Part shown: positions 1 to 26,959 of the stretch, one piece after another
How the letters are laid out: each line of letters starts with the position of its first letter
Position numbering within the stretch: the stretch's first letter is position 1
Assembly (NCBI GenBank): GCA_023441105.1
Contig: JAEZQX010000491.1
Span: forward strand, 1 to 27,203
Length of the DNA: 27,203 nt
Source: Pseudomonadota bacterium
GTDB lineage: Bacteria > Pseudomonadota > Gammaproteobacteria > Burkholderiales > Burkholderiaceae
Direction: 5' to 3'
The notes under the pieces: model-generated
Told to the model about the DNA's origin: nothing
Databases searched by the model: none
Seen by the model: the letters and a program-made list of their open reading frames with translations, nothing else
Program-made: the position numbers and the translations under genes

Positions 1-593
1 CCGGTGTAGGGCACGTGCAGCATGTAGGTTCCGGTGTTCTGCTTCAGCATCTCCATCGGGACGTGCATCGTGCCGTAGTTGCCGGACGAGCCGAAGGTGA
101 TCACCCCGGGACGCGCCTTGGCGTCGGCGATGAATTCCTTGGCGGTCTTCCACGGGCTGTCCGCGCGCACCACCAGTACCGTCGGATCGGCGGTGAAGCG
201 GGCGATCGGGACCAGGTCCTTGAGCTGGAACATCGGCGAGCGTTCCAGCACCCGGTCCGCCTCCGGCAGGATGGTGATCGATGACAAGGCCAGCAGCACG
301 GTGTAGCCGTCGGGCTTCGCCTTGGCGACCTGCGCCATGCCGATGCCGCCGCCGGCACCGGCCTTGTTCTCGACCACCACCGGTTGTCCGAGAATCCGCG
401 ACAGCGCTTCGGCCACCGGACGGCCGACGGTGTCGGCCACGCCGCCCGGCGGGAACGGCACGACCATGGTCACCGACCGCGATGGGTAGGCTTCCTGCGC
501 CTGCAGGACCGGTGCCGCGGCCGCGGCGCCAAGGCCGGCGAGCATCAGGCAGGTGCGCCGGCGGGCGCGCGATCCGGGTGCATTGCTGGGCAT
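1..593 (-). CDS. Bug/TctC-family tripartite tricarboxylate transporter substrate-binding protein (3' part cut off by window edge)
   Basis: The ORF runs off the left edge; 197 codons from the ATG are visible. The start is ATG at 591-593 (complement), preceded by a strong GGAG ribosome binding site about 7 nt upstream. The N-terminus has an Arg-rich stretch (RARRRTCLM, Tat-like) and a hydrophobic Ala/Gly/Leu segment ending in LQAQE, so export to the periplasm is likely. The mature part shows Bug-family hallmarks: YPSRSVTMVVPFPPGG near the start, then VVENKAGAGGGIG, AKPDGYT and GVITFGSSGNYG. Bug proteins bind carboxylates or other small acids for TctAB-type carriers, but many are orphans. No TctA or TctB gene is visible here. 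The ligand cannot be told from the sequence. It is divergent from the RHS gene, with about 220 bp between the two starts. Confidence 0.93.
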   Translation of the reverse strand, partial: MPSNAPGSRARRRTCLMLAGLGAAAAAPVLQAQEAYPSRSVTMVVPFPPGGVADTVGRPVAEALSRILGQPVVVENKAGAGGGIGMAQVAKAKPDGYTVLLALSSITILPEADRVLERSPMFQLKDLVPIARFTADPTVLVVRADSPWKTAKEFIADAKARPGVITFGSSGNYGTMHVPMEMLKQNTGTYMLHVPYT

Positions 594-816
594 CGTTGCA
601 TCTCCTTCCAAGTCTCGATTCGAATGTCCGGCTGGCGACCTGCCTGGTCGCCCGCGCCGGGTCTCAGGAGATGATAGCCGCCTGCCCCGACGGGCCCGGT
701 CGCAGGCTCCGCCGGGGAGGCGGCCTTGTCGGCAGGCCGGGCCGCGATCGACCGGTCTAGGCGAGCAGGCCGCATTCCGGCCGTCCGGCCGATGGTGCGT
801 CGAAGCCGTTGCCACG

Positions 817-3800
817 ATGCTGGTCGTCATGCAGACCTCGAGCATCCGCCTCGGCACGCCGTCCCGCCGGTCCACGCCCGCGTCCTCCCGCGGGCCTGCG
901 CCCGAGCCGTCGTGCGTGCCTGTGCCCGCCCCCTCGTGCGCGTCTGCGCCCGTCCTCGCCGCCGCGCGGCTGCTGGTCGGCGGTGCCCTGCTGTGGTCGG
1001 CGATCCTCCTGCCGCTCGCCGCGCAGCAATGCCGTCCCGCCGGCGGCGGCTCGCCTTGCGAGACTGCCGACGGCATGGCCAGCCTCGGCGATCCGGATGG
1101 CGGCGACCTCGCGGTGGGCAATCCCTTCCACCCGATCACCGGCAACAAGTACCAGGAGGAAGTCGATGCCTCGCCGTTGCCCGGATTCCTGGGGCTGGAG
1201 ATCCGCCGGCACTTCAACGGCGCCTATGCCGCCCAGCCGGGCCCGTGGGGCAGGGGCTGGACCCTGTCCTACGATACGCGGCTGTTCCGTCACGGCAGCA
1301 TGCTGCAGATCGTGCAGGCGGACGGGCGCCGCCTGCTGTTCGGCGTACCGTCGGCTGCCGCCAGGGAGCCGGCGGCTTGTGCGGCGGCGTCGCCCGGCCA
1401 GGGCGAGCTGACCGCGGAGGGGGAGGGGTTTCGCTGGCGCTGGCCCCAGCAGCGGGAGCTCCGCTTTGATGGCTCCGGCCATCTCGTCGCCATCGGTCCG
1501 CGCGGCGGCTCGGCGGCGGAGTCGGCGCGGATCGAAAGAGATGCCGTCGGGCGCATCGTCCGCATCACCGATCCCCTCGGCCGCAGCCTGCAGATCGGCT
1601 ACGACGGCAATGGGCATCTCAGTCGCATCGAACATCCCCTGGGAACCTGGCGATACGCGGTGGACGACGCCGGCCGGCTGCAGTCCGTCACCGCGCCTGA
1701 CGGCGTGACGCGTCGCTATCGCTACGAGGACCCGGGCCATCCGCACCGCTTCACTGCCGTCACGATCCAGCCGCCGGGAGAGGTCGAAGCCCTGGTCGCG
1801 CAATGGGTCTACGACGCCGCCGGCAGGGTGGTGAGGCATCGGCGGGCGGATGGCGGCGAACTGCACATGGAGTACCGGCAGTCCCCCGCCGGGGCGCGCG
1901 GCAGGAACGAAGCCTGGTCGCAGCTCACCAACGCAGCCGGCGAGCGGACCAGGTTCCGTGCAGTGGAGCTGGCCGGACGCTGGCGGATCACGGAAATCGC
2001 CGGCGCGGGATGCGAGGAATGCGGCCCGACCAACCTGCGCCTGCGCCATGACGCTCGTGGACTGCTCGTGGCCCGGCGCCGCATCGGCGGCGACGGCATC
2101 GCCTACCAGCGCGATGCGCAAGGCCGGGTGGTGCGGATGTCGCGCCTGGATGCAGCCGGGACGACAGCGGCGGACTACCTGCTGCGCTTCGAGTATGGGG
2201 ACGGCCAGACCCAGCTGCCGCGTCTCGTCGCGCGGCCGAGCGTCGTGCCCGGCAGGGAGCATCGCATCCTCCTGAACCGCGACGAGCGCGGCAACCTGCT
2301 GGAGTACCTCGAGTCCGGCTATGCGCCGGCGCTTGGCGCAGCGCCATGGCAACCCATCGCCAGGAAGACCGTCCTTCGCTACCGGGTCATCGCCGGGCGG
2401 CTGGTGCTGGCGGAGGTCGACGGTCCGCTGCCAAACGGACCGGCGGCCGCACCGGCTGATTCCGACATCACCCGGTTCGGCTACGACGAGGCCGGCCGGT
2501 TCCTGCAGACCATGGAGCTGCCGGGCGGCTGGTGGCGTCGCGCCGTGCAGCGGGATGCCGCCGGACGGGAGCTGGTGACCCGGTCCGGTGACGGATATCG
2601 GGAAGTCGAGCATCGCCGGGTGCTGGACTATCGTCACCGATGGCTCGAGCTGGGCCGCGTCGCCTGGCTCGCGGCGGATGCAAGACGCCTGCCGGACGGG
2701 GCGATCGCTGCAGTCAGCAGTCGCCGCTTCGATCCGCGCGGGCATCTGCTGCACTGGCAGGATGCCGGCGGCCAGCGGTTGAGCTACCGGCATGACGCAG
2801 CCGGCCGACTGCTCGGCATCGAGGATCGGCGCGGATACCGCGCGGAGGTGCGCCGGGATGCGGAAGGGCGGGTGGTCGCCAGCCTGCTGTTCGAACCGGG
2901 CGGCACCGGGCCGCGGCGGGCCGCCTATTTCGGTCGCAACCGGAATGGCCGGCTGGAGACGCTCCTGCTGCCGGACGGCCGGCGCTTCGGGCTGCACTAC
3001 GACGTCGCCGGTCGCCCTCTGGCCATTGCCGGGTCGGACGGCTCCGTGCGGCTGGTCGCGTTGCCATCGGCCGCTCGCGGCAGCACCAGCACATCGGTCG
3101 ACGATTTCGGCAGGCCGGTACTGCAGGTGCTGCCGGACCACGGGTCGCGTAACCTGCGCTACGACGAGGCCGGGCGGATGATCGAGCTGACCGACGCCGC
3201 GGGCACCCGGTACGCCTTCCGGCACGATGTGACCGGCAGGCTGCTGGCGCGCACCATCAGCGGCCCGGCAGGCGAGGAAACCGTGGCTTTCGGCTGGCAG
3301 GGCAACTTGCTGGTACAGGCGGACGATCCCGCCCAGGCCACCCGCTGGACCCATGACGCTGCCGGCAGGATGCTGTCGACGTCGATCGAGCTGGCGGGGT
3401 TGCCGGGAAGGCCGCTGCGCACCACGCGCACCTGGGGTGCCGTGGCCGACGCTGTCCTGGAGCAAGGGCTTGTGGACGGACAAACGCTGTCGCTGAGCCA
3501 CTCCGGCACAAGCCATGACGACCTGCCGGGACAGTTGCAATTGCGCAGCCGGTTCTGGAGCGCCGCCCGCGATTGGCTGGATCGCATTCTGCCCGCGGCG
3601 GCGGCTTCCCACGTCACCGGCTGGCTGCCCGCGATGACGCTGGCACGGGATGTCGCCGTGCATCCCCTCGATGGACTGACCGGGCTCACCTTCTTCAACG
3701 GCAGCGTGATGAGCCGGACCGTCGATGCCGCCGGACGAACGCTGCGTCTGCTCGCCGGTCATCCGGATCGGCCCGCGGCACACTGGCGCTATCACTATGC

Positions 3801-5496
3801 CGGCGGCTCGCGCATCGCCGGCATCGAGAAGCTGGACGGCGCGCTTGCGGGTGAACCGCGCCCTGGCCACGACGACATGCGTGGGCAGCAGGATGGGCCG
3901 TCATCCACGCACGGCGTCGGCCTCGACCGCGACCGCGCCGGCCGCGTCGTCGCCGATGCCCGCTTTCGCTACGCCTACAGTCCTCGCGGGCAACTCGAGC
4001 GCGTGACGGACCTGGAGGGGCGACTGGTCGCCACCTACGCCTACAACCATCGCGGCCAGCGGGTGCGCAAGACGGTGCATGCTCCACAAGCACGGCCCGT
4101 CACGCGCTACTTCCTGTGGGACGAGCAGGCGCTGGTGGCCGAGATCGACGCCGACGGCGGCGTCGTCGCCCAGTATCTGGCCCTCGACGACGGCCAGCGC
4201 CGCCTGCCGATCGTCCAGTTGCGGGCCGCTGCGCCGGGCAGGGCGGCGCCACGGGCGCGCCGCACCAGCCAGTCGATCCTGGCGATCCATGCCGACCATC
4301 GCGGCGCGCCGGTCGCCCTGACGGACGAGCGCGGTCGCCTGGCCTGGCAGGCACAGGTCGGACCATGGGGCACGGCAACCGTGCAGTCGGTCTCCGGCGA
4401 CGCGGGAACCAACCTGCGATTGCCGGGCCAGTATTTCGACGCCGAGACCGGGCTGCACGACAACTGGCATCGCAGCTACGACCCGCGCCGTGGCCGCTAC
4501 CTGCAGCCTGATCCACTGGGCTATCCCGACGGCGTCGATGCCTATGCCTACGCCGGCGGAGATCCGGTCAACCGCACGGACCCGACGGGGCTCTACGAGA
4601 TCGATGTCCACTACTACATGACGTTCTTTCTCGGTGTGACGGCGGGACTGGATCCGGAAGAGGCGAGGATCGTGGCACTGGCGGCCCAGTACGTGGACGA
4701 CAACCCGTTGACCAGTCCGGTTGACCCGGGCGGCATCGGCACCACCGTGGCGTCGGTGCTCGGCAACCAGGCGCGCCTGCTCAACTATCACTTCGTCCTC
4801 AGTGGCGCTGATGGACGAACCCTGCCGCCCTATCGCAATGACCGGCTGGAGATCGAAGACAGCCCGCAACTGGCCAATCTCCTGCGCGCCGCGCGCACCG
4901 CCGGCCTCGGCCGCAATGCCAGCCTGCAGTTCCTCGGGGAGTACCTGCATGCGCTGGCGGATACCTATGCCCACCGGGATCCGCGCAACGTCCCTTACGA
5001 TGCCTTGATGCTTGGCTGCGGCGTAGGCCATGGGCTTGCCGGTCATGAGCCGGACCTGACCTATGATGACCTGCCGGCCTGGAGCGGGGTGATTCCGGGC
5101 GTGTTGCCCATCGGACGTACGCCCTGGCGCCGGGAGGCGCGAACCCTGGCGATGGAACTCGAATTGCACGGCGTGCTGCTGGCCGTGGGGGATCCCGCCC
5201 GGGCGCGGGAAACCGCGGAGATCGAGGCCACGCTGCGCGAGTTCAACGCCATTCGCGAGAGTGAGGGCCGCGGCGGGGACTTCGCCGGCAAGATCGGGCT
5301 GCTGCAGTCCCGGCTCGTCGCGCTCGGCTACGGCCACCTCGACCTGCGCAACGACGAACGCTACGGCTACAACGAGCGGGACGCGCGCAGCAACCGCCTG
5401 GTCTTCCTGCGCAACACCGAGACCGGGGCGCCCCTGCGCGAGGAGGACTTTCCGGGAGTCTGCCTCGAAGGAGGAAGCCGTTGCCGAGCGCGCTGA
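817..5496 (+). CDS. Exported RHS/YD-repeat protein with a DUF6765-like putative zinc-hydrolase C-terminal tip
   Basis: About 1559 aa from the ATG at 817. This start has no clear ribosome binding site; ATG 829 or GTG 916/922 are alternatives, while the longer frame from 553 would run into the Bug gene. A hydrophobic segment near residues 50-73 (LLVGGALLWSAILLPLAAQ) looks like a Sec signal with a long n-region. A DUF6531-like motif follows (NPFHPITGNKYQEE), then many YD repeats (YDAAGRVVRH, YDEAGRFLQT, YDEAGRMIEL). The RHS core ends with RYLQPDPLGY and DPTGL, the usual self-cleavage boundary. The tip (residues 1260-1559) begins with IDVHYYMT and carries YVDDN, NYHF, an H-x3-D-x3-H motif (H1378, D1382, H1386) and GHGLAGHEPD. 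I relate this to DUF6765, which shares features with zinc-dependent phospholipase C/P1 nuclease folds; that link comes from memory of motifs. A toxic hydrolase role is inference. No VgrG or T6SS gene is nearby. Confidence 0.9.
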   Translation: MLVVMQTSSIRLGTPSRRSTPASSRGPAPEPSCVPVPAPSCASAPVLAAARLLVGGALLWSAILLPLAAQQCRPAGGGSPCETADGMASLGDPDGGDLAVGNPFHPITGNKYQEEVDASPLPGFLGLEIRRHFNGAYAAQPGPWGRGWTLSYDTRLFRHGSMLQIVQADGRRLLFGVPSAAAREPAACAAASPGQGELTAEGEGFRWRWPQQRELRFDGSGHLVAIGPRGGSAAESARIERDAVGRIVRITDPLGRSLQIGYDGNGHLSRIEHPLGTWRYAVDDAGRLQSVTAPDGVTRRYRYEDPGHPHRFTAVTIQPPGEVEALVAQWVYDAAGRVVRHRRADGGELHMEYRQSPAGARGRNEAWSQLTNAAGERTRFRAVELAGRWRITEIAGAGCEECGPTNLRLRHDARGLLVARRRIGGDGIAYQRDAQGRVVRMSRLDAAGTTAADYLLRFEYGDGQTQLPRLVARPSVVPGREHRILLNRDERGNLLEYLESGYAPALGAAPWQPIARKTVLRYRVIAGRLVLAEVDGPLPNGPAAAPADSDITRFGYDEAGRFLQTMELPGGWWRRAVQRDAAGRELVTRSGDGYREVEHRRVLDYRHRWLELGRVAWLAADARRLPDGAIAAVSSRRFDPRGHLLHWQDAGGQRLSYRHDAAGRLLGIEDRRGYRAEVRRDAEGRVVASLLFEPGGTGPRRAAYFGRNRNGRLETLLLPDGRRFGLHYDVAGRPLAIAGSDGSVRLVALPSAARGSTSTSVDDFGRPVLQVLPDHGSRNLRYDEAGRMIELTDAAGTRYAFRHDVTGRLLARTISGPAGEETVAFGWQGNLLVQADDPAQATRWTHDAAGRMLSTSIELAGLPGRPLRTTRTWGAVADAVLEQGLVDGQTLSLSHSGTSHDDLPGQLQLRSRFWSAARDWLDRILPAAAASHVTGWLPAMTLARDVAVHPLDGLTGLTFFNGSVMSRTVDAAGRTLRLLAGHPDRPAAHWRYHYAGGSRIAGIEKLDGALAGEPRPGHDDMRGQQDGPSSTHGVGLDRDRAGRVVADARFRYAYSPRGQLERVTDLEGRLVATYAYNHRGQRVRKTVHAPQARPVTRYFLWDEQALVAEIDADGGVVAQYLALDDGQRRLPIVQLRAAAPGRAAPRARRTSQSILAIHADHRGAPVALTDERGRLAWQAQVGPWGTATVQSVSGDAGTNLRLPGQYFDAETGLHDNWHRSYDPRRGRYLQPDPLGYPDGVDAYAYAGGDPVNRTDPTGLYEIDVHYYMTFFLGVTAGLDPEEARIVALAAQYVDDNPLTSPVDPGGIGTTVASVLGNQARLLNYHFVLSGADGRTLPPYRNDRLEIEDSPQLANLLRAARTAGLGRNASLQFLGEYLHALADTYAHRDPRNVPYDALMLGCGVGHGLAGHEPDLTYDDLPAWSGVIPGVLPIGRTPWRREARTLAMELELHGVLLAVGDPARARETAEIEATLREFNAIRESEGRGGDFAGKIGLLQSRLVALGYGHLDLRNDERYGYNERDARSNRLVFLRNTETGAPLREEDFPGVCLEGGSRCRAR

Positions 5497-12639: not shown

Positions 12640-12710
12640 CCGACGGTACCAGGGTAGATGCCCTGCCGATCCACGTAGTGCGAGCGGTATTCGACGAACA
12701 AGGGGAATGG

Positions 12711-13559
12711 ATGGGAGCGCCGAGCGACAGGTTGGCGGAGTTGTTGCAGGGTTCGCGTGATTCGTTGCTGAACCAGTGGGTCGAGGAGGAGTACGACGGC
12801 AAGGGGATCGCATCGGGTGCCCGCAAGGAGAACGCCAGGGCCACCCTGGCCGCGCTCGAACGGGGCATCGCGGACGGCGGCGAGCCGGTCCGCTTCGACG
12901 CCTCCGCATGGCAGCCGCTGCGCGAAGCGCTTGCCGACGGCTCGGCGACCGATGCCGCCCAGGGGCGAACCGCCGGCGACACCAGCCGCTTCATCCTGGC
13001 CTTGAAGCGGCCGCTGTTCCTCGCACTGCAGCAGCGCGCCGGCAATGACCCGGACCAGCTGATGGAGTCCATTCTCTGGGTGACCACCCTGGTCGACGCC
13101 ATGGCGCGATTCACCGTCGACGCCTACCAGCGCACTCGCGAGGACATGATCCAGCGGCAGCAGGGCGAGTTGCTGGAGCTGTCGACGCCCGTCATCAAGC
13201 TGTGGGACAAGGTGCTGGCCGTGCCGATGATCGGTACGCTCGACAGTGGCCGCTCCCAACTGGTGATGGAGACGCTCCTGCAGCGGATCGTGGAAACCGG
13301 TTCGGAACTGGCGATCATCGACATCACCGGCGTCCCGACCGTGGACACGCTGGTGGCCCAGCACCTGATCAAGACCGTGTCCGCCATCCGCCTGATGGGC
13401 GCCGACTGCATCATCAGCGGCATCCGGCCGCAGATCGCCCAGACCATCGTGCACCTCGGCATCGATCTCGACGGCGTCACCACCAAGGCCTCCCTGGCCG
13501 ATGCACTGGCCACGGCGCTCAAGCAAACCGGCTATGTCGTGACGACGGCCAGGGTCTGA
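12711..13559 (+). CDS. rsbR: Stressosome sensor RsbR (RsbRD_N-like + STAS)
   Basis: 282 aa from ATG 12711, with AAGGGGA upstream; a GTG at 12678 is possible but less well placed. The N-terminal half (about 1-150) is helical (DRLAELLQGSRDSLLNQWVEEE, LMESILWVTTLVDAMARFTVDAY) and resembles the RsbRD N-terminal sensory domain, not the globin type. The STAS domain covers about 160-275: STPVIKLWDKVLAVPMIGTLDS, AIIDITGVPTVDT and GIRPQIAQTIVHLGIDL. The two phospho-threonine sites of B. subtilis RsbRA match T213 (VDT) and T245 (AQT). With RsbS it would form the cytosolic stressosome core, with RsbT as kinase. It is the first gene of the six-gene operon. The signal sensed is unknown. Confidence 0.93.
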   Translation: MGAPSDRLAELLQGSRDSLLNQWVEEEYDGKGIASGARKENARATLAALERGIADGGEPVRFDASAWQPLREALADGSATDAAQGRTAGDTSRFILALKRPLFLALQQRAGNDPDQLMESILWVTTLVDAMARFTVDAYQRTREDMIQRQQGELLELSTPVIKLWDKVLAVPMIGTLDSGRSQLVMETLLQRIVETGSELAIIDITGVPTVDTLVAQHLIKTVSAIRLMGADCIISGIRPQIAQTIVHLGIDLDGVTTKASLADALATALKQTGYVVTTARV

Positions 13560-13569
13560 GCCGGCGATC

Positions 13570-13968
13570 ATGGAGCGCATCCCCATATTGCAGATGGGCA
13601 AGTGCCTGCTGGTCACCATCCAGGTGGACATGCAGGACCAGACGGCCATCGCGCTGCAGGACGACCTGGCGACGAAGATCGAGGCCACCGCGGCCAAGGG
13701 CGTGCTGATCGACATCTCGGCGCTCGAGATGGTCGATTCGTTCATCGGGCGGATGCTGGCCAGCATCTCCGGCATCGCCAAGGTCCTCGATGCCACGACC
13801 GTGGTGGCGGGCATGCAGCCCGCCGTCGCCATCACGCTGGTGGAACTGGGGCTGTCACTGCCCGGGGTCCTCACCGCGCTCGACGTCGAACGGGGCATGC
13901 GATTGCTGGCGGCCCGCGATGCCGATTTCCAGCCGGGCGAGGGGCAGGGTCTTGACGACGAGTCGTGA
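13570..13968 (+). CDS. rsbS: Stressosome scaffold/antagonist RsbS (STAS)
   Basis: 132 aa from ATG 13570, 10 nt after the rsbR stop. It is a single STAS domain: IPILQMGKCLLVTIQVDMQD, KGVLIDISALEMVDSFIGRMLA and TVVAGMQPAVAITLVELGL. S57 in VDSFIGR corresponds to the serine that RsbT phosphorylates in B. subtilis RsbS (S59). In the known system RsbS holds RsbT in the complex until it is phosphorylated. The C-terminal tail (QPGEGQGLDDES) is a little longer than in Bacillus. The 3' end overlaps the rsbT start by 17 nt. Confidence 0.95.
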   Translation: MERIPILQMGKCLLVTIQVDMQDQTAIALQDDLATKIEATAAKGVLIDISALEMVDSFIGRMLASISGIAKVLDATTVVAGMQPAVAITLVELGLSLPGVLTALDVERGMRLLAARDADFQPGEGQGLDDES

Positions 13969-14356
13969 AGGGGCGATCCCCCTGGGCACCCAGCAGGATA
14001 TCGTCGCCAGCCGCCAGGTGGTCCGCAAGCTTGCACAGGAGCTTGGTTTTTCGCTGGTCGACCAGACCAAGATGGTGACCGCAACCAGCGAGTTGTCGCG
14101 CAACACCTTGATCTACGGGGGCGGCGGCGAGATGCGCTGGGAGGTCCTCGTCAACGGTACCCGCCAGGGATTGAGAGTCCATTTCGAAGACCACGGGCCC
14201 GGGATTCCCGACGTCGAGGCGGCGATGACGGACGGCTGGTCTTCGGGCTCCGGCCTCGGCCTCGGGCTGTCCGGAAGCAAGCGGCTGGTCAACGAGTTCG
14301 AGATCCGCACGGCGGTCGGCGCGGGTACCTGCGTCACCATCACCCGATGGAAGTGA
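13952..14356 (+). CDS. rsbT: Serine/threonine kinase RsbT (GHKL ATPase)
   Basis: 134 aa from a TTG start at 13952, with AGGGG 7 nt upstream, overlapping rsbS by 17 nt. The length matches B. subtilis RsbT (133 aa), which favours this start over the longer frame from 13790. GHKL motifs are the N-box TSELSRNTLIYGGGG (E47, N51), the G1 box DHGPGIPD (from D80) and the G2 loop SGSGLGLGLSGSKRL (98-112). It phosphorylates RsbS and RsbR in stressosomes and then activates a downstream partner. No RsbU phosphatase is encoded here, so its released target is probably the fused phosphatase or the kinases that follow. That is inference. Confidence 0.95.
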   Translation: MTTSREGAIPLGTQQDIVASRQVVRKLAQELGFSLVDQTKMVTATSELSRNTLIYGGGGEMRWEVLVNGTRQGLRVHFEDHGPGIPDVEAAMTDGWSSGSGLGLGLSGSKRLVNEFEIRTAVGAGTCVTITRWK

Positions 14357-15402
14357 TGCCAGTTGCTCCTCACCGCGCCTTCGACGTCACGGATGGCAGC
14401 CAGCCGGGCGAGGTCCGGCGGGCAGCGGTGCAGCTGGCGCGGCAGCTCGGGTTCGACGAGGTGGCGGCCGGGCGGGTCGCCCTGGTGGCGACCGAACTCG
14501 GCAGCAACCTCGTCAAGCATGCGCGGGACGGCCGGATGCTCCTGGCTCCGGTGCAGGCGGACGATGGCACCTGGATGGTGGAGCTGATCTCGCTCGATGC
14601 GGGTCCGGGCATCGCCGACCTGCGCGCCTGCCTCGAGGACGGTTTCTCCACCGGTGGCACGGCGGGAACCGGCATCGGTGCCGTCCGCCGCCTCGCGGCA
14701 ACGTTCGACGTCTTTTCGCAGCCGCCGGGCGGTACGGTCATCCTGGCGCGGGTCGCTGCCGCTGCGCCGGCAGTCGTCGCCGTGGCGCCCCTGGCCCCGG
14801 AGCAGGCCGCGGCCCCCGGCTGCCTGGTGGGCGCCGTCGCCCTGTGCGCGCCCGGGGAAACCGCCTGCGGCGATGCCTGGCGCATAACGGCGGACGCCAG
14901 CCGTGCCGCGGTCATGGTTGCCGACGGCCTCGGACACGGCCCGCTGGCCGCCGAGGCTTCCGAGGCGGCGACGGCGATGTTCGGGGACGATCCGTACGGC
15001 CTGCCCAGCCAGGTCCTCGGCCGGGTCCATCTCGGGCTCAAGGCGACGCGCGGCGCAGCCGTGGCCTTGGCGCGGATCGACTTCGAGGACGAATCGCTCG
15101 TCTTCGCGGGCGTGGGCAACGTCTGCGCGCGGATCATCAACGGCGTGGAGGATCGCACGCTGGTCTGCCAGAACGGCACTGCCGGGATGCAGATCAGGTC
15201 GCTGCAGGATGTGCGCCATACGTGGACCGCGCACTCGCTGCTGGTGATGCATTCCGACGGCATCGCCAGCCGCTGGAGCCTGGCCGAGGCGCCGACGTTG
15301 CTGCAGCACCATCCGGTGCTGGTTGCCGCCTGGCTGGCGAACAATCATCGGCGCGTGCGCGACGATGCGACCGTGGTCGTCGTCAGGCGACGGCAGCTGT
15401 GA
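14347..15402 (+). CDS. Fusion of GHKL anti-sigma-type ATPase domain and SpoIIE/PP2C phosphatase (RsbX position)
   Basis: 351 aa from ATG 14347, overlapping rsbT by 10 nt. The N-terminal domain (about 1-135) is a second GHKL ATPase: ATELGSNLVKHARDG (E50, N54), DAGPGIADL and GGTAGTGIGAVRRLA. After an Ala/Pro-rich linker (136-158) comes a SpoIIE/PP2C phosphatase domain with metal-binding acids: GDAWRI (D176), VADGLGHGPLA (D193), HSDGI (D304) and VRDDATVVVV (D339/D340). RsbX in Bacillus is a phosphatase alone that resets RsbR and RsbS. Here the same protein also carries a kinase-like domain, so it could both add and remove phosphate, or one half may be regulatory. Such fusions are known in Gram-negative stressosome loci; their activity here is inference. 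Confidence 0.9.
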   Translation: MEVMPVAPHRAFDVTDGSQPGEVRRAAVQLARQLGFDEVAAGRVALVATELGSNLVKHARDGRMLLAPVQADDGTWMVELISLDAGPGIADLRACLEDGFSTGGTAGTGIGAVRRLAATFDVFSQPPGGTVILARVAAAAPAVVAVAPLAPEQAAAPGCLVGAVALCAPGETACGDAWRITADASRAAVMVADGLGHGPLAAEASEAATAMFGDDPYGLPSQVLGRVHLGLKATRGAAVALARIDFEDESLVFAGVGNVCARIINGVEDRTLVCQNGTAGMQIRSLQDVRHTWTAHSLLVMHSDGIASRWSLAEAPTLLQHHPVLVAAWLANNHRRVRDDATVVVVRRRQL

Positions 15403-16352
15403 TGGGGGAGGCGTCGAATGGCGATCGGGCCGCGGCTGGTGCCGGCGCGGCGACCGTCGCGGATCTCCAGGCACAGCTGAGCGACAAGGCCGCCGAGCTC
15501 GAGGCGTTGCGCGAAGAGCTGGAAGAGACCAACCGTGGCGTGGTGGCTCTCTATGCCGAACTGGACGCGCAGGCGGCCGAGCTGCGCCGCGCCACCGACC
15601 TGAAGAGCCGCTTTCTCGCTTACACCAGCCATCAGTTCCGCACGCCGGTGGTCGCCATCCACAGCGTGGCCCGGCTGCTGATGGACAAGATCGACGGTCC
15701 GCTGACCCAGGAGCAGGAGGTCCAGGTGCGGCTGATCCAGCAGGCGGCCGACGAGTTCTCGGAGATGATCAACGACCTGCTCGACCTCGCCAAGGTGGAA
15801 GCGGGCCGCGTGGACGTGTCGCCCGGCTGGTTCGAGATGGTCGACCTGTTCTCGGCGCTGCGCGGCATGTTCAAGCCGCTGGTGACCAACCCGGATGTCG
15901 CGCTGATCTTCGAGGAGCCGGAAGGCGTGCCGGCCATATTCAGCGACGACCGCAAGCTGGCGCAGATCCTGCGCAACTTCATCTCCAACGCCCTGAAATT
16001 CACCGAGCGAGGCGAGGTGCGGATTTCAGCGCGCGTGTTCGAGAATGCCAATGTCATCTTCTCGGTGAGCGACACCGGCATCGGGATCCCTGCGGAATCG
16101 CACCACCTGATCTTCGAGGACTTCTCGCAGGTCCAGTCGCCGATCCAGAAGGGGCTGCGGGGGACCGGGCTCGGGCTGTCGCTCGGCAAGCGGCTTGCCG
16201 GCCTGCTCGGCGGTCGAGTCGAGATGCAGAGCGAGCCTGGCGTCGGCTCCACTTTCTCGGTGATACTGCCACTCAGGTATCCCGAAGCCGCCGGCGCTGC
16301 GGCGGCAAGCGCCGGAAACCTCGGCGCCAAGGAGGGACGGGAAAATGACTGA
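15402..16352 (+). CDS. Cytosolic sensor histidine kinase of the stressosome operon
   Basis: 316 aa from ATG 15402, which shares one base with the preceding TGA (TGATG). There are no membrane segments or PAS domain. An N-terminal coiled coil (about 20-66, DLQAQLSDKAAELEALREEL) leads into HisKA with H77 in YTSHQFRTP. The HATPase domain has the N-box RNFISNALKF (N192, N196), SDTGIGIP (D224) and RGTGLGLSLGKRL. The C-terminal tail is Ala/Gly-rich. A soluble kinase with no sensor domain in a stressosome operon suggests that its signal comes from the complex, perhaps through released RsbT. The 3' end overlaps the hybrid kinase by 8 nt. Confidence 0.93.
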   Translation: MGEASNGDRAAAGAGAATVADLQAQLSDKAAELEALREELEETNRGVVALYAELDAQAAELRRATDLKSRFLAYTSHQFRTPVVAIHSVARLLMDKIDGPLTQEQEVQVRLIQQAADEFSEMINDLLDLAKVEAGRVDVSPGWFEMVDLFSALRGMFKPLVTNPDVALIFEEPEGVPAIFSDDRKLAQILRNFISNALKFTERGEVRISARVFENANVIFSVSDTGIGIPAESHHLIFEDFSQVQSPIQKGLRGTGLGLSLGKRLAGLLGGRVEMQSEPGVGSTFSVILPLRYPEAAGAAAASAGNLGAKEGREND

Positions 16353-18324
16353 TCCGATCGCATCCACCGCGGCGGGCGGTGCTGCGCAGGAGGTGCTGGT
16401 TGTGGACGACCATCCCGCCTCGCGCTATGCCACCGCCCGGGTCATGCGGGCCGCCGGGTTCGAGACCCGCGAGGCCGCCACCGGAACCGAGGCGCTGGCG
16501 CTCGCCGACAAGGGCCTGGCGGCGGTCATCCTGGACATGCACCTGCCGGACGTCAACGGCTTCGAGGTCTGCCAGGCGCTGCGGGCCCGCCCGGAAACCG
16601 CCAACATGCCGGTGATCTGCCTCTCCGCGGCCTATGTCCGAAACGACGACAAGGTCCAGGGGCTCGACTCGGGAGCGGACGCCTACATCGTCCATCCGGC
16701 CGATCCGGCGCTGCTGGTGGCCACCGTCAAGGCGCTGATCCGGGCCCGCGGTGCGGAAGAGGGCATGCGGCACAGCGAGGCGCGGTTCCGGGCCGTCTAC
16801 GACAACGCGCTCAGCGGCATCTGCCTGCTCGACGCTGCCGGCCGGGTCGTGGACGCCAATCCGGCGATGCTGGGGCTGCTGCAGCGGGAGCGGGCCGGCG
16901 TGGTCGGGCGCCGGCTGGTCGAGTTCGCGCCGCCCGACTGGGTCGTGCCGATCGAACAGCATCTCGCCGAAAGCCGGGCGGGGATGTGGCGGGGAGATTT
17001 TCCGCTCCTGGGCGCCGATGGCCGGCTGGTCCATCTCGACTGGCGCCTGTCGGCGCACGTGGAGCAGGGCATCAGCCTGGCAGTGGCCAACGACGTCTCG
17101 GAGCGCGTGGCGCTGCTGCGGCAGCGCGAAGAGCTGCTGGAACGCGAGCAGGCGGCCCGTGCGGCAGCCGAGCACCTCAGCCGCGCCAAGGATGAGTTCG
17201 TGGCGGTGCTGTCGCACGAACTGCGCACCCCTTTGAATGCCATCCTCAACTGGGTACAGGTGCTGAAGCATTCGAAGAACGCGAGCCTCGAGCGCGGCCT
17301 CGACACCATCGAGCGCAATGCCCGGGCGCAGACGCACCTCATCTCGGATCTTCTCGATGTCTCGCGCCTCGATCTCGGCAAGCTGCGCCTGCACCTGCAG
17401 CCGATCCAGGCAGCCGAGCTCCTGGAGTCGTCCATCAACGCCTTCGACGGCCAGCTGGCGGAGAAGTCGATCCAGGTCGTGGTGGATGCCAGCGGTCCGC
17501 GGCTGCCGATCCTTGCCGACGGTTCGCGGCTGCAACAGGTCATCTGGAACCTGCTGAGCAATGCCATCAAGTTCTCGCAGCCCGGCGGCCGGATCCACGT
17601 GCGCCTCGAACAGGGCGCCGAGAACCTGACGCTTGAGGTGAGGGACGAGGGCCAGGGGATCCGCAAGGAGTTCCTGCCGTACCTGTTCGATCGCTTCACC
17701 CAGAGCGACTCCGCCAGCAACCGGTTCCACCGCGGGCTTGGCCTGGGCCTGTCGATCGTCAAGCGCCTCGTCGACCTGCATGGCGGGACCATTAGCGCCG
17801 CCAGCGACGGCCCCGGCATGGGCGCGACGTTCACCGTGACGATTCCGGCCACGCCGGTCGGTGCCGTCGCCGCCGCGGCCATCGCCTCGCCAGGCGGCGG
17901 ATCGGGGCCAGCCATGGGCGAAGCGGTCGCGGATCTGCAGGGGCTCAGGATCGTCGTGGTGGAAGACGACCACGAAGCTCGCGAGGTGCTGGCCATGATC
18001 CTGCGCGAGCGCGGCGCGACTGTCGTCCAGGCCTCCGATTATGCGGATGGCCTGCGTCGCATCGGAGACGCCAGGCCCGACATCCTGATCAGCGACATCG
18101 GCATGGCAGGCAGCGACGGGTATGCCCTGATCCGGGAGGTGCGCCGCCAGGAGCGCGGCTCGGCTCGGCTACCGGCGATCGCCTTGACGGCGTTTGCCCG
18201 GCCGCGCGATCGGCAGCTGGCACTCGAGGCTGGCTTCGATGCGCATTGCGCCAAGCCACTGGATACGGCCGAGCTGATTGCCGCCGTCCGGCGGCTGGTC
18301 GTTCGGGAGGCCGAAGCGCGCTGA
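16345..18324 (+). CDS. Hybrid kinase REC-PAS-HisKA-HATPase-REC
   Basis: 659 aa from ATG 16345, with AGGAGGGACGGG upstream, overlapping the previous gene by 8 nt. Domain order: receiver 1 (about 15-135, VLVVDDHPASR, D64 in VILDMHLPD), PAS (145-255, FRAVYDNALSGICLLDAAGRVVDANPA), coiled linker, HisKA (H291 in LSHELRTPLNA), HATPase (WNLLSNAIKF, RDEGQGI, RGLGLGLSIVKRL) and receiver 2 (535-655, IVVVEDDHE, D584 in LISDIGM, K637 in HCAKPLD). In receiver 1 the conserved switch Lys is replaced by His (H117 in YIVHPAD), so its phosphorylation response may be altered. There is no DNA-binding output. It probably receives signals from the stressosome and the kinase before it. Confidence 0.95.
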   Translation: MTDPIASTAAGGAAQEVLVVDDHPASRYATARVMRAAGFETREAATGTEALALADKGLAAVILDMHLPDVNGFEVCQALRARPETANMPVICLSAAYVRNDDKVQGLDSGADAYIVHPADPALLVATVKALIRARGAEEGMRHSEARFRAVYDNALSGICLLDAAGRVVDANPAMLGLLQRERAGVVGRRLVEFAPPDWVVPIEQHLAESRAGMWRGDFPLLGADGRLVHLDWRLSAHVEQGISLAVANDVSERVALLRQREELLEREQAARAAAEHLSRAKDEFVAVLSHELRTPLNAILNWVQVLKHSKNASLERGLDTIERNARAQTHLISDLLDVSRLDLGKLRLHLQPIQAAELLESSINAFDGQLAEKSIQVVVDASGPRLPILADGSRLQQVIWNLLSNAIKFSQPGGRIHVRLEQGAENLTLEVRDEGQGIRKEFLPYLFDRFTQSDSASNRFHRGLGLGLSIVKRLVDLHGGTISAASDGPGMGATFTVTIPATPVGAVAAAAIASPGGGSGPAMGEAVADLQGLRIVVVEDDHEAREVLAMILRERGATVVQASDYADGLRRIGDARPDILISDIGMAGSDGYALIREVRRQERGSARLPAIALTAFARPRDRQLALEAGFDAHCAKPLDTAELIAAVRRLVVREAEAR

Positions 18325-24544: not shown

Positions 24545-25627
24545 ATGGCTGACCTGTTCGACAACCCGATGGGCCTCTGCGGATTCGAGTTCGTGGAGTT
24601 CGCTTCGCCGGTGCCGGGCGTCCTGGAGCGGACGTTCGAGATGTTGGGCTTCACCGAGGTCGCCCGGCACCGGTCCAAGGACGTTGTCCTTTACCGGCAG
24701 GGCGAGATCAACTTCATCGTGAACCGCGAGCCGAAGAGCCACGCCGCCTACTTCGCGGCCGAGCACGGGCCGAGTGCCTGCGGGCTCGCGTTCCGCGTCC
24801 GCGACGCGCACCTCGCCTATGAACGGGCGCTCTCGCTCGGGGCCCAGCCGCTCGAAATGCCTACGGGGCCGATGGAGCTGCGGCTGCCCGCGATCAAGGG
24901 GATCGGCGGCGCGCCGCTGTACCTGATCGATCGCTTCGAGGACGGCCAGTCGATTTACGACATCGACTTCCGCTTCCACGACGGCGTGGAGCGGCGGCCC
25001 GCAGGCCACGGGCTGCGACTCGTCGATCACCTGACCCATAACGTCTACCGTGGCCGGATGGCATTCTGGGCGAACTTCTACGAGAAGCTGTTCAACTTCC
25101 GCGAGATCCGCTACTTCGACATCAAGGGCGAGTACACGGGCCTCACCAGCAAGGCGATGACGGCGCCCGACGGTCGGATCCGGATCCCGCTGAACGAGGA
25201 GTCGGCCAAGGGCAGCGGGCAGATTGAGGAGTTCCTGATGCAGTTCAACGGCGAGGGGATCCAGCACGTGGCGCTGCTCACCGATGACCTGAAGACGACG
25301 ATCGACGAGTTGCAGATGGCGGGCGTCCCGCTGCTGGCCCCGCCGAACGACGTCTACTACGAAATGCTTGAGGAGCGGGTGCCCGGCCACGGCGAGGACG
25401 TGGGCGAGCTGAAGGCTCGCGGCATCCTGCTCGACGGGACCACGCAGGGCGGCAAGTCCCGGCTGCTGCTGCAAATTTTTTCGGAGACGCAGCTCGGTCC
25501 GGTGTTTTTCGAGTTCATCCAGCGCAAAGGCGACGACGGCTTCGGCGAGGGCAACTTCAAGGCCCTTTTCCAGTCGATCGAGCGCGACCAGATTCGTCGC
25601 GGAGTCCTGTCGGCCGACAAGGCTTAG
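24545..25627 (+). CDS. hpd: 4-hydroxyphenylpyruvate dioxygenase
   Basis: 360 aa, the normal length. The start is ATG 24545, with TGAGGAGA upstream. It converts 4-hydroxyphenylpyruvate and O2 to homogentisate and CO2, the second step of tyrosine degradation, in the cytosol with Fe(II). Two glyoxalase-like (VOC) halves are visible. The iron ligands match H162 (DHLTHNV), H241 (GIQHVAL) and E323 ([18 protein letters not shown]). The C-terminal helix [13 protein letters not shown] closes the active site. It lies 11 nt after the Bug gene and 33 nt before hmgA, in one transcription unit. Pigment (pyomelanin) would form only if hmgA failed. Confidence 0.97.
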
Positions 25628-25660
25628 CGCTCCCGCCACCCGATTCGAGCAGACATTCCC

Positions 25661-26959
25661 ATGTCAAAGGATCGCTATCAGACCGGCTTCGGCAACAGCT
25701 TCGCGACCGAAGCCATGGCCGGTGCGCTGCCGGTCGGGCGCAATTCGCCGCAACGCTGCCCGCACGGCCTCTACGCCGAGCAGCTCTCCGGCACCGCCTT
25801 CACGGCGCCGCGGGCCGACAATCGGCGCAGCTGGCTCTATCGGATCCGCCCGGCCGCGGTGCACCGTCCCTTCGAGCGCTTCAGCGCCGGCCGGATCGTC
25901 AGCGACTTCAGCGCAGAGCCAGCGCCCCCGAATCAACTGCGCTGGGACCCACTGCCGATGCCTTCCGAACCGACGGACTTCGTCGAGGGCCTGGTCACGA
26001 TGGCAGGGCAGGGCGATCCGCACGCGCAGGTCGGCGCAGCGGCCCATCTTTATGCAGCGAATCGATCGATGACGGGGCGCGCCTTCTACGACGCTGACGG
26101 CGAGCTTCTCATCGTGCCGCAATCCGGTCGTCAGCGCTTCGTCACCGAGCTCGGCGTCATCGATGCCGAGCCGCAGGAGATCGTCGTCATCCCTCGCGGC
26201 GTCCGGTTCCGCGTCGAACTTCCCGATGGCGAAGGGCGCGGCTACGTCTGCGAGAACTACGGCGCCAACTTCAGGCTTCCCGATCTCGGGCCCATCGGAT
26301 CGAACGGGTTGGCGAACCCGCGCGACTTCCTGACGCCCGTCGCTGCCTACGAGGACCGCGACGAAGCGTACGAACTCGTCGCCAAGTTCATGGGCCACCT
26401 GTGGTCGGCCCGCATGGACCATTCCCCGTTCGACGTGGTCGCCTGGCACGGGAACTACGCACCCTACAAGTACGACCTGCGTCGCTTCAACGCGATCGGC
26501 TCGATCAGCTACGACCATCCGGACCCCTCGATCTTCCTGGTGCTGCACAGCGCTTCGGACACGCCAGGGGTCAGCAGCATCGACTTCGTCATTTTTCCGC
26601 CGCGGATCCTCGCAATGCAGGACACGTTCCGTCCGCCCTGGTTCCACCGCAACGTCGCGAGTGAGTTCATGGGGCTCATCGCCGGCGTCTACGACGCCAA
26701 GGCGGAAGGCTTCCTGCCGGGTGGCGCCAGCCTGCACAACAGCATGTCGGGACATGGACCGGACGCGGAGACCTTCGAGAAGGCCAGCACCGCCGACCTG
26801 TCGAAGCCCGACGTCGTCCGCGACACGATGGCGTTCATGTTCGAGACGCGCTGCGTCTGGCGACCGACCACCCAGGCGCTGGCTTCGGCCCAGCTCCAGC
26901 ACGAGTACTTCCGCTGCTGGCAGGGGCTGGAGAAGCACTTCCCCGGAGCACATCGATGA
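25661..26959 (+). CDS. hmgA: Homogentisate 1,2-dioxygenase
   Basis: 432 aa, the normal length. The start is ATG 25661; the ribosome binding site is weak (GAGCAG about 10 nt upstream). It opens the homogentisate ring to maleylacetoacetate, using Fe(II) and O2. The N-terminus [13 protein letters not shown] and [18 protein letters not shown] are family signatures. Iron ligands match H329 and E335 ([16 protein letters not shown]) and H365 ([12 protein letters not shown]), equivalent to human H335, E341 and H371; H359 lies nearby. The stop codon overlaps the next start (ATGA at 26956-26959), so fah is translationally coupled. Confidence 0.97.

Follow-up and report, generated by a model that had tools for sequence, protein, structure and literature searches.

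The window analysed here, 27,203 nt of contig JAEZQX010000491.1 from a Burkholderiaceae bacterium (assembly GCA_023441105.1), encodes an RHS protein whose C-terminal tip belongs to the family DUF6765, and it is probable that this tip is activated through its own newly cut N-terminus. The tip would be a zinc-dependent phosphoester hydrolase, carried as cargo by a Sec-exported RHS shell; for as long as the two stay joined, the N-terminus of the tip would be blocked and its metal cluster incomplete. The RHS aspartyl protease would cleave behind the motif DPTGL, freeing Tyr1260, whose main-chain amine and carbonyl would become metal ligands alongside His1265 (His6 of the mature chain), Asp1294, His1325, His1378, Asp1382, His1386, His1405, and Asp1413. 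Self-cleavage of the shell would then be release and zymogen activation at once, and an adjacent secreted beta-helix protein would be a likely immunity protein or partner. Family membership, residue conservation, fold resemblance, exact spacing and gene linkage are observed here; we infer metal binding, cleavage of the window RHS protein, activation, a substrate, toxicity, and immunity.

The RHS protein consists of DUF6531, RHS/YD repeats, an RHS core and the DUF6765 tip (Pfam and NCBIfam; PF05593 at 128 bits, PF03527, TIGR03696), with the motifs DPLGY and DPTGL ahead of the tip; Pfam gave no PAAR match on it. Its N-terminus, judged by eye alongside homologues, is hydrophobic and signal-peptide-like, and by a crude test 88 of the 99 homologues that exceed 1400 aa show a similar hydrophobic stretch close to their start. 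On sequence grounds, the DPLGY and DPTGL pair closing the RHS core marks an RHS aspartyl autoprotease, an enzyme that has been described with such a motif pair (PMC8636562; all papers are cited here from excerpts of their text).

The distance from this predicted cut to the tip's first His is exact. Counted in RHS proteins with DUF6765 tips only, the motif Asp is present in all 113 homologues, and in 113 of 113 the first His occupies position 6 of the chain that the predicted cut after D-x-x-G-[L/Y/T] would release. Two spacing values of 28 proved to be an artefact of the search pattern, which had missed DLYGT (P0027) and DFLGL (P0110); looked at directly, both have the usual distance. Residue 1 behind the cut is Y in 106 tips, F in six and N in a single one, and this N-terminal residue, the predicted ligand, is at the fitting position in every one of the 113. 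In the related loci the cut motif is occasionally altered at an unchanged place (DTQGQ in L005, DPLEL in one gene of L013), and two loci of a divergent group, from the phylum of a Verrucomicrobia-titled genome (L108 and L109; genome G027), have W-x4-H right behind D-x-x-G-L, as in S1/P1 nucleases.

In S1 nuclease the main chain of the N-terminus binds metal (PMC5201275). In PC-PLC of Listeria it is W1 that holds a metal through its main-chain atoms; the enzyme is inactive with one residue added ahead of W1, and it accepts W1F (PMC10576769). In the RHS protein Rhs1, the cut falls between DPLGL and A, so that the shell ends in Leu and the tip starts with the next residue, and D1338N blocks the cut with loss of toxicity (PMC8636562). 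Taking the N-terminal ligand of PC-PLC and S1 nuclease together with the cut position of Rhs1, the RHS-borne enzyme is predicted to start exactly at residue 1; and since the free N-terminal residue binds metal in such enzymes and the predicted cut falls exactly there, the active site would be built by the shell's self-cleavage.

One alternative, which we consider unlikely, accepts a zinc hydrolase and takes the junction for an ordinary domain boundary, the first helix starting there, with the cut merely releasing the toxin. Many RHS tips begin at DPxGL, and the ADP-ribosyltransferase fold is not known to have an N-terminal metal ligand. Rhs1 nevertheless requires cleavage for toxicity though its tip is an ADP-ribosyltransferase (PMC8636562). 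A boundary of this kind is hard to reconcile with 113 of 113 RHS tips without one residue of slack, or with the starts of relatives that have no RHS shell. Among stand-alone DUF6765 proteins (figures are from the best 120 of 1938 matches), 119 have Met and one has Val (its position 1) five residues ahead of the His; the database sets the start of 116 at this residue, and the remaining four have a Met there that lies within a longer predicted start. All 120 carry D, N, or E as their second residue; in another 27 genome loci, whose starts were taken from the alignment, it is Q, D, or N. By the methionine aminopeptidase rule, residue 2 decides whether the start Met is kept or removed; because it is D, N, E, or Q here, the start Met of the stand-alone proteins should be retained.

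The same count is found in secreted relatives and in the two neighbouring families, cleavage sites and the fate of Met being predicted by rule, and members within a family not being independent of each other. A signal-peptidase-like site lies exactly before residue 1 in four of six secreted DUF6765 members (L065, L066, L067, and L070). In Zn_dep_PLPC (PF00882), 39 of 49 loci read by eye have the first His as His6 of the mature chain and 7 are unclear; 15 of the 39 have a Met-Ala or Met-Pro start (one of them GTG) and His at position 7, and with Ala or Pro at position 2 in 15 of 15, predicted removal of Met yields His6. Two loci below the cut-off (L232 and L233) have a Met-Asn start and His at 6. 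In S1-P1, W1-x4-H6 stands at the end of the leader in 11 of 11 loci read (of 14), L190-L192 having been left out for want of an N-terminal part or as below the cut-off, like Zn_dep_PLPC L217-L222 (below the cut-off). That signal-peptide sites coincide with residue 1, and that Met, kept or removed, moves the count as a rule of a free amine predicts, again argues against a mere domain boundary. Four routes would thus lead to a mature chain with His6 and residue 1 free: autocleavage by the RHS protein, cleavage by signal peptidase, a start Met kept, and a start Met removed. As a side observation, the Met-Ala and Met-Pro starts with His at 7 among L193-L247 suggest a start-site rule for the superfamily.

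Several members weigh against activation through a free N-terminus. The secreted L072 and L078 have no signal-peptidase-like site at residue 1, L106 does not fit the residue-1 rule, and three of the 49 Zn_dep_PLPC loci (L242, L244, and L247) do not fit the His6 count.

The family of the tip is clear: PF20551 (DUF6765) matches it with 67.6 bits (E 1.8e-18, above the curated cut-off of 26.6 bits) and the whole RHS protein with E 1.2e-16, as a preliminary description made from the sequence alone had guessed; nothing in NCBIfam matched the tip. A homologue search with the tip picked out 113 of the 7991 best candidates, each bearing RHS repeats and PF20551 by precomputed annotation; only proteins of 0.55-1.75 times the length of the RHS protein were scored, which excluded short stand-alone proteins. 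In an alignment of the window tip with all 113, none dropped and one merely 96 aa long, His1265, Asp1294, and His1325 are kept in every tip, and His1378, Asp1382, His1386, His1405, and Asp1413 in all but one, the sole miss being a gap (Table 1). The preliminary description had listed H1265, H1325, H1378, D1382, H1386, H1405, H1410, and D1413. All exist as it said and seven are conserved to this degree, so that the loss in homologues that would have counted against it did not occur, but it overlooked D1294, and H1410 does not belong in the set. H1410, retained in 54 of 114 tips only, was rejected as a metal ligand.

Conservation on such a scale is not chance. Across 35 diverse members, stand-alone proteins included, the invariant columns (tip numbering) are H6, Y8, D35, H66, G115, H119, D123, H127, and D154, with H146 nearly invariant; the candidate metal ligands are among them. 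Loci L016 (in-frame stop) and L029 (short fragment) were left out of this alignment. L023 and L024 run into contig edges, L074 is another family, and L102, L105, L107, and L111 are either without the N-terminal part or below the cut-off. An inactive or degenerate domain that serves as a structural plug is very improbable: truncated copies (P0064 and P0083) and the interrupted L016 would suit it, but each of the eight predicted ligands is missing from at most one of the 114 tips.

DUF6765 was matched twice in a search of 72,556 plasmid records (Vibrio and Photobacterium). On a tree of 41 domains the RHS label changes four times; because the deep forks are weak, and compatible with one origin, no number of independent RHS fusions is claimed.

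Kinship with zinc phospholipase C (PLC) and S1-P1 nucleases was examined by structure and by sequence. The AlphaFold2 (AF2) model of the tip is all-helical (pLDDT 85.3, pTM 0.89; residues 1-30 at 97-99), the mostly helical fold of the PLC/S1-P1 superfamily and the one that the preliminary description had put forward as a check. In a structural re-alignment the first 13 rows are PLC/S1-P1 chains, of six proteins, and in all of them residue 1 of the model pairs with chain residue 1, 26, or 27; Foldseek alone gave nothing for the tip at E <= 0.001. The tip also has the superfamily's ordered ligand set, H-D-H-HxxxD-H-H-D/E. In eight bacterial S1-P1 nuclease loci the matching order is W1 H6 D45 H62 H115xxxD119 H125 H149 D153, and in 11 Zn_dep_PLPC loci H6 D42 H57 (nearly invariant) H96 D100 H104 H121 E125, in both cases numbered from row starts that we picked.

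Sequence searches against solved structures found no meaningful match, either with the tip (best a flavodoxin, E 1.5) or with the 35-member profile (E no better than 0.36, interleukin-4 among the matches). PF00882 is weakly matched by five of the 35 members (best E 0.0015) and not by the window tip; PF02265 is absent from the eight families that the 35 members match at E up to 10, a range in which HMMER filters drop most weak matches. Of the three comparisons named in the preliminary description, the one with DUF6765 thus succeeded, and those with PF00882 (for the window tip) and PF02265 (for the members) did not. Profile comparison by hhalign, with the beta-helix alignment as negative control, was not significant for DUF6765 against S1-P1 or Zn_dep_PLPC; because the known kin pair S1-P1 and Zn_dep_PLPC likewise fails, the method is too weak to decide kinship. 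The kinship proposed earlier is nonetheless supported by Pfam, the AF2 model, the structural re-alignment and the weak PF00882 matches, and the tip is very probably a zinc phosphoester hydrolase of the PLC/S1-P1 fold. Phospholipid and nucleic acid, either of them a predicted substrate, are indistinguishable from these data.

The gene directly downstream, which shares 16 nt with the end of the RHS gene (stop included), encodes the secreted beta-helix protein. This position and its conserved linkage, with a secreted beta-helix gene downstream of the RHS gene in the window and in 18 of the 27 related loci that could be assessed, are those expected of an immunity gene and make the protein a candidate immunity or partner protein. 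The beta-helix profile matches 26 of 274 genomes of the class, all but one (G004) weakly (E 4.8e-10 or worse), and a crude motif test found no RHS gene beside the weak matches L172-L175 (12-19 kb each). This hints at an exclusive linkage, DUF6765 itself not having been searched in the 274 genomes. On balance we lean slightly towards an antibacterial toxin with the beta-helix protein as its immunity protein. It is doubtful, if conceivable, that the RHS protein instead displays or releases a nutrient-scavenging phosphatase, nuclease, or lipase, with the beta-helix protein as an accessory (a carbohydrate-binding or lyase partner). A literature search of open-licence PMC papers found no report of a beta-helix immunity family.

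Six related loci (L006, L008, L009, L011, L014, and L022) have tandem runs of two to eight beta-helix matches behind the RHS gene, some fragmentary; such arrays are possibly banks of orphan immunity genes. In L177 (G014:C64, 1070-6410) a beta-helix gene precedes an RHS gene that has no DUF6765 match, and may be an orphan immunity gene beside another RHS.

Table 1. Coordinates of the RHS gene, its predicted functional residues and the adjacent beta-helix gene (fractions of 114 refer to the window tip plus 113 homologues).
Feature	Position	Strand	Remarks
RHS protein gene	817..5496	+	1559 aa; frame 553-5496, ATG 817 the likely start
First DPxG motif, DPLGY, residues 1232-1236	4510..4524	+	by sequence, one of the putative RHS aspartyl autoprotease pair
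Second motif, DPTGL, residues 1255-1259	4579..4593	+	predicted autocleavage after Leu1259
DUF6765 tip, 300 aa, residues 1260-1559	4594..5493	+	predicted trinuclear-zinc phosphoester hydrolase; stop 5494-5496
Tyr1260, residue 1 behind the cut	4594..4596	+	predicted main-chain metal ligand
His1265, His6 of mature tip	4609..4611	+	114/114
Asp1294 (tip D35)	4696..4698	+	by order, counterpart of S1/P1 catalytic Asp; 114/114
His1325 (tip H66)	4789..4791	+	114/114
H1378-x3-D1382-x3-H1386	4948..4974	+	113/114 each
H1405-x7-D1413	5029..5055	+	113/114 each
Secreted right-handed beta-helix protein, 364 aa	5481..6575	+	TTG start; Pfam Beta_helix E 4.6e-7; AF2 and fold comparison

Elsewhere in the window, translations at 12678-18324 resemble a stressosome-like run (a STAS protein, a short STAS protein, an anti-sigma-like ATPase, and a phosphatase) followed by two histidine kinases. 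Genes at 24545-26959 resemble those of 4-hydroxyphenylpyruvate dioxygenase and homogentisate 1,2-dioxygenase, which we take to serve tyrosine degradation.

If the proposed activation is correct, RHS self-cleavage completes a catalytic centre beyond opening a cage, and the weapon would be chemically off in its producer until cut. The uncharacterised DUF6765 would gain a testable catalytic model, which would also explain why nearly all examined members are without an N-terminal extension; a rule of His6 of the mature chain would help to find start sites and active members, and the beta-helix proteins would be named as a candidate immunity family. Whether all three parts hold together, namely an active-site ligand created by RHS autoproteolysis, a four-route His6 rule across the superfamily and a new beta-helix immunity family, we regard as evenly poised.

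RHS tips of the PLC/S1-P1 type have already been predicted, and the earlier suggestion of a new class of polymorphic toxin was too strong: YdjM has been predicted as an RHS toxin tip of this superfamily (PMC8557891), and Het-C as a toxin domain of the same superfamily in polymorphic-toxin-related systems (PMC3482391). Both resemble the tip as predicted superfamily domains of polymorphic toxins or related systems; they are other families, and the excerpts tie no RHS cleavage to metal-ligand formation. Within open-licence PMC, the literature search found no paper on DUF6765 and none linking RHS cleavage to a metal ligand, so that the activation idea is new as far as could be searched.

S1/P1 nucleases (PF02265) have no significant sequence or profile match to the tip. 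Their HxxxDxxxxxH and H-x3-D contrast with its HxxxDxxxH and H-x7-D, and their Trp1 with its Tyr1, although the RHS tips of L108 and L109 do have Trp. The zinc PLC family (PF00882; PC-PLC of Bacillus cereus and Listeria monocytogenes, Clostridium perfringens alpha-toxin) is matched at best with E 0.0015 by a DUF6765 member, and in the Listeria enzyme a separate protease, not an RHS autoprotease, removes the propeptide (PMC10576769). DUF6765 itself matches the tip significantly and is annotated on all 113 homologues, but it is a Pfam family without assigned function, and its cytosolic stand-alone members begin with Met and are not RHS-cut. Rhs1 of Photorhabdus laumondii shares the RHS shell, a DPLGL aspartyl autoprotease and a tip starting right after Leu; it differs in being a type VI secretion system PAAR protein with an ADP-ribosyltransferase tip, whose cleavage is described, in the excerpted text, as release (PMC8636562).
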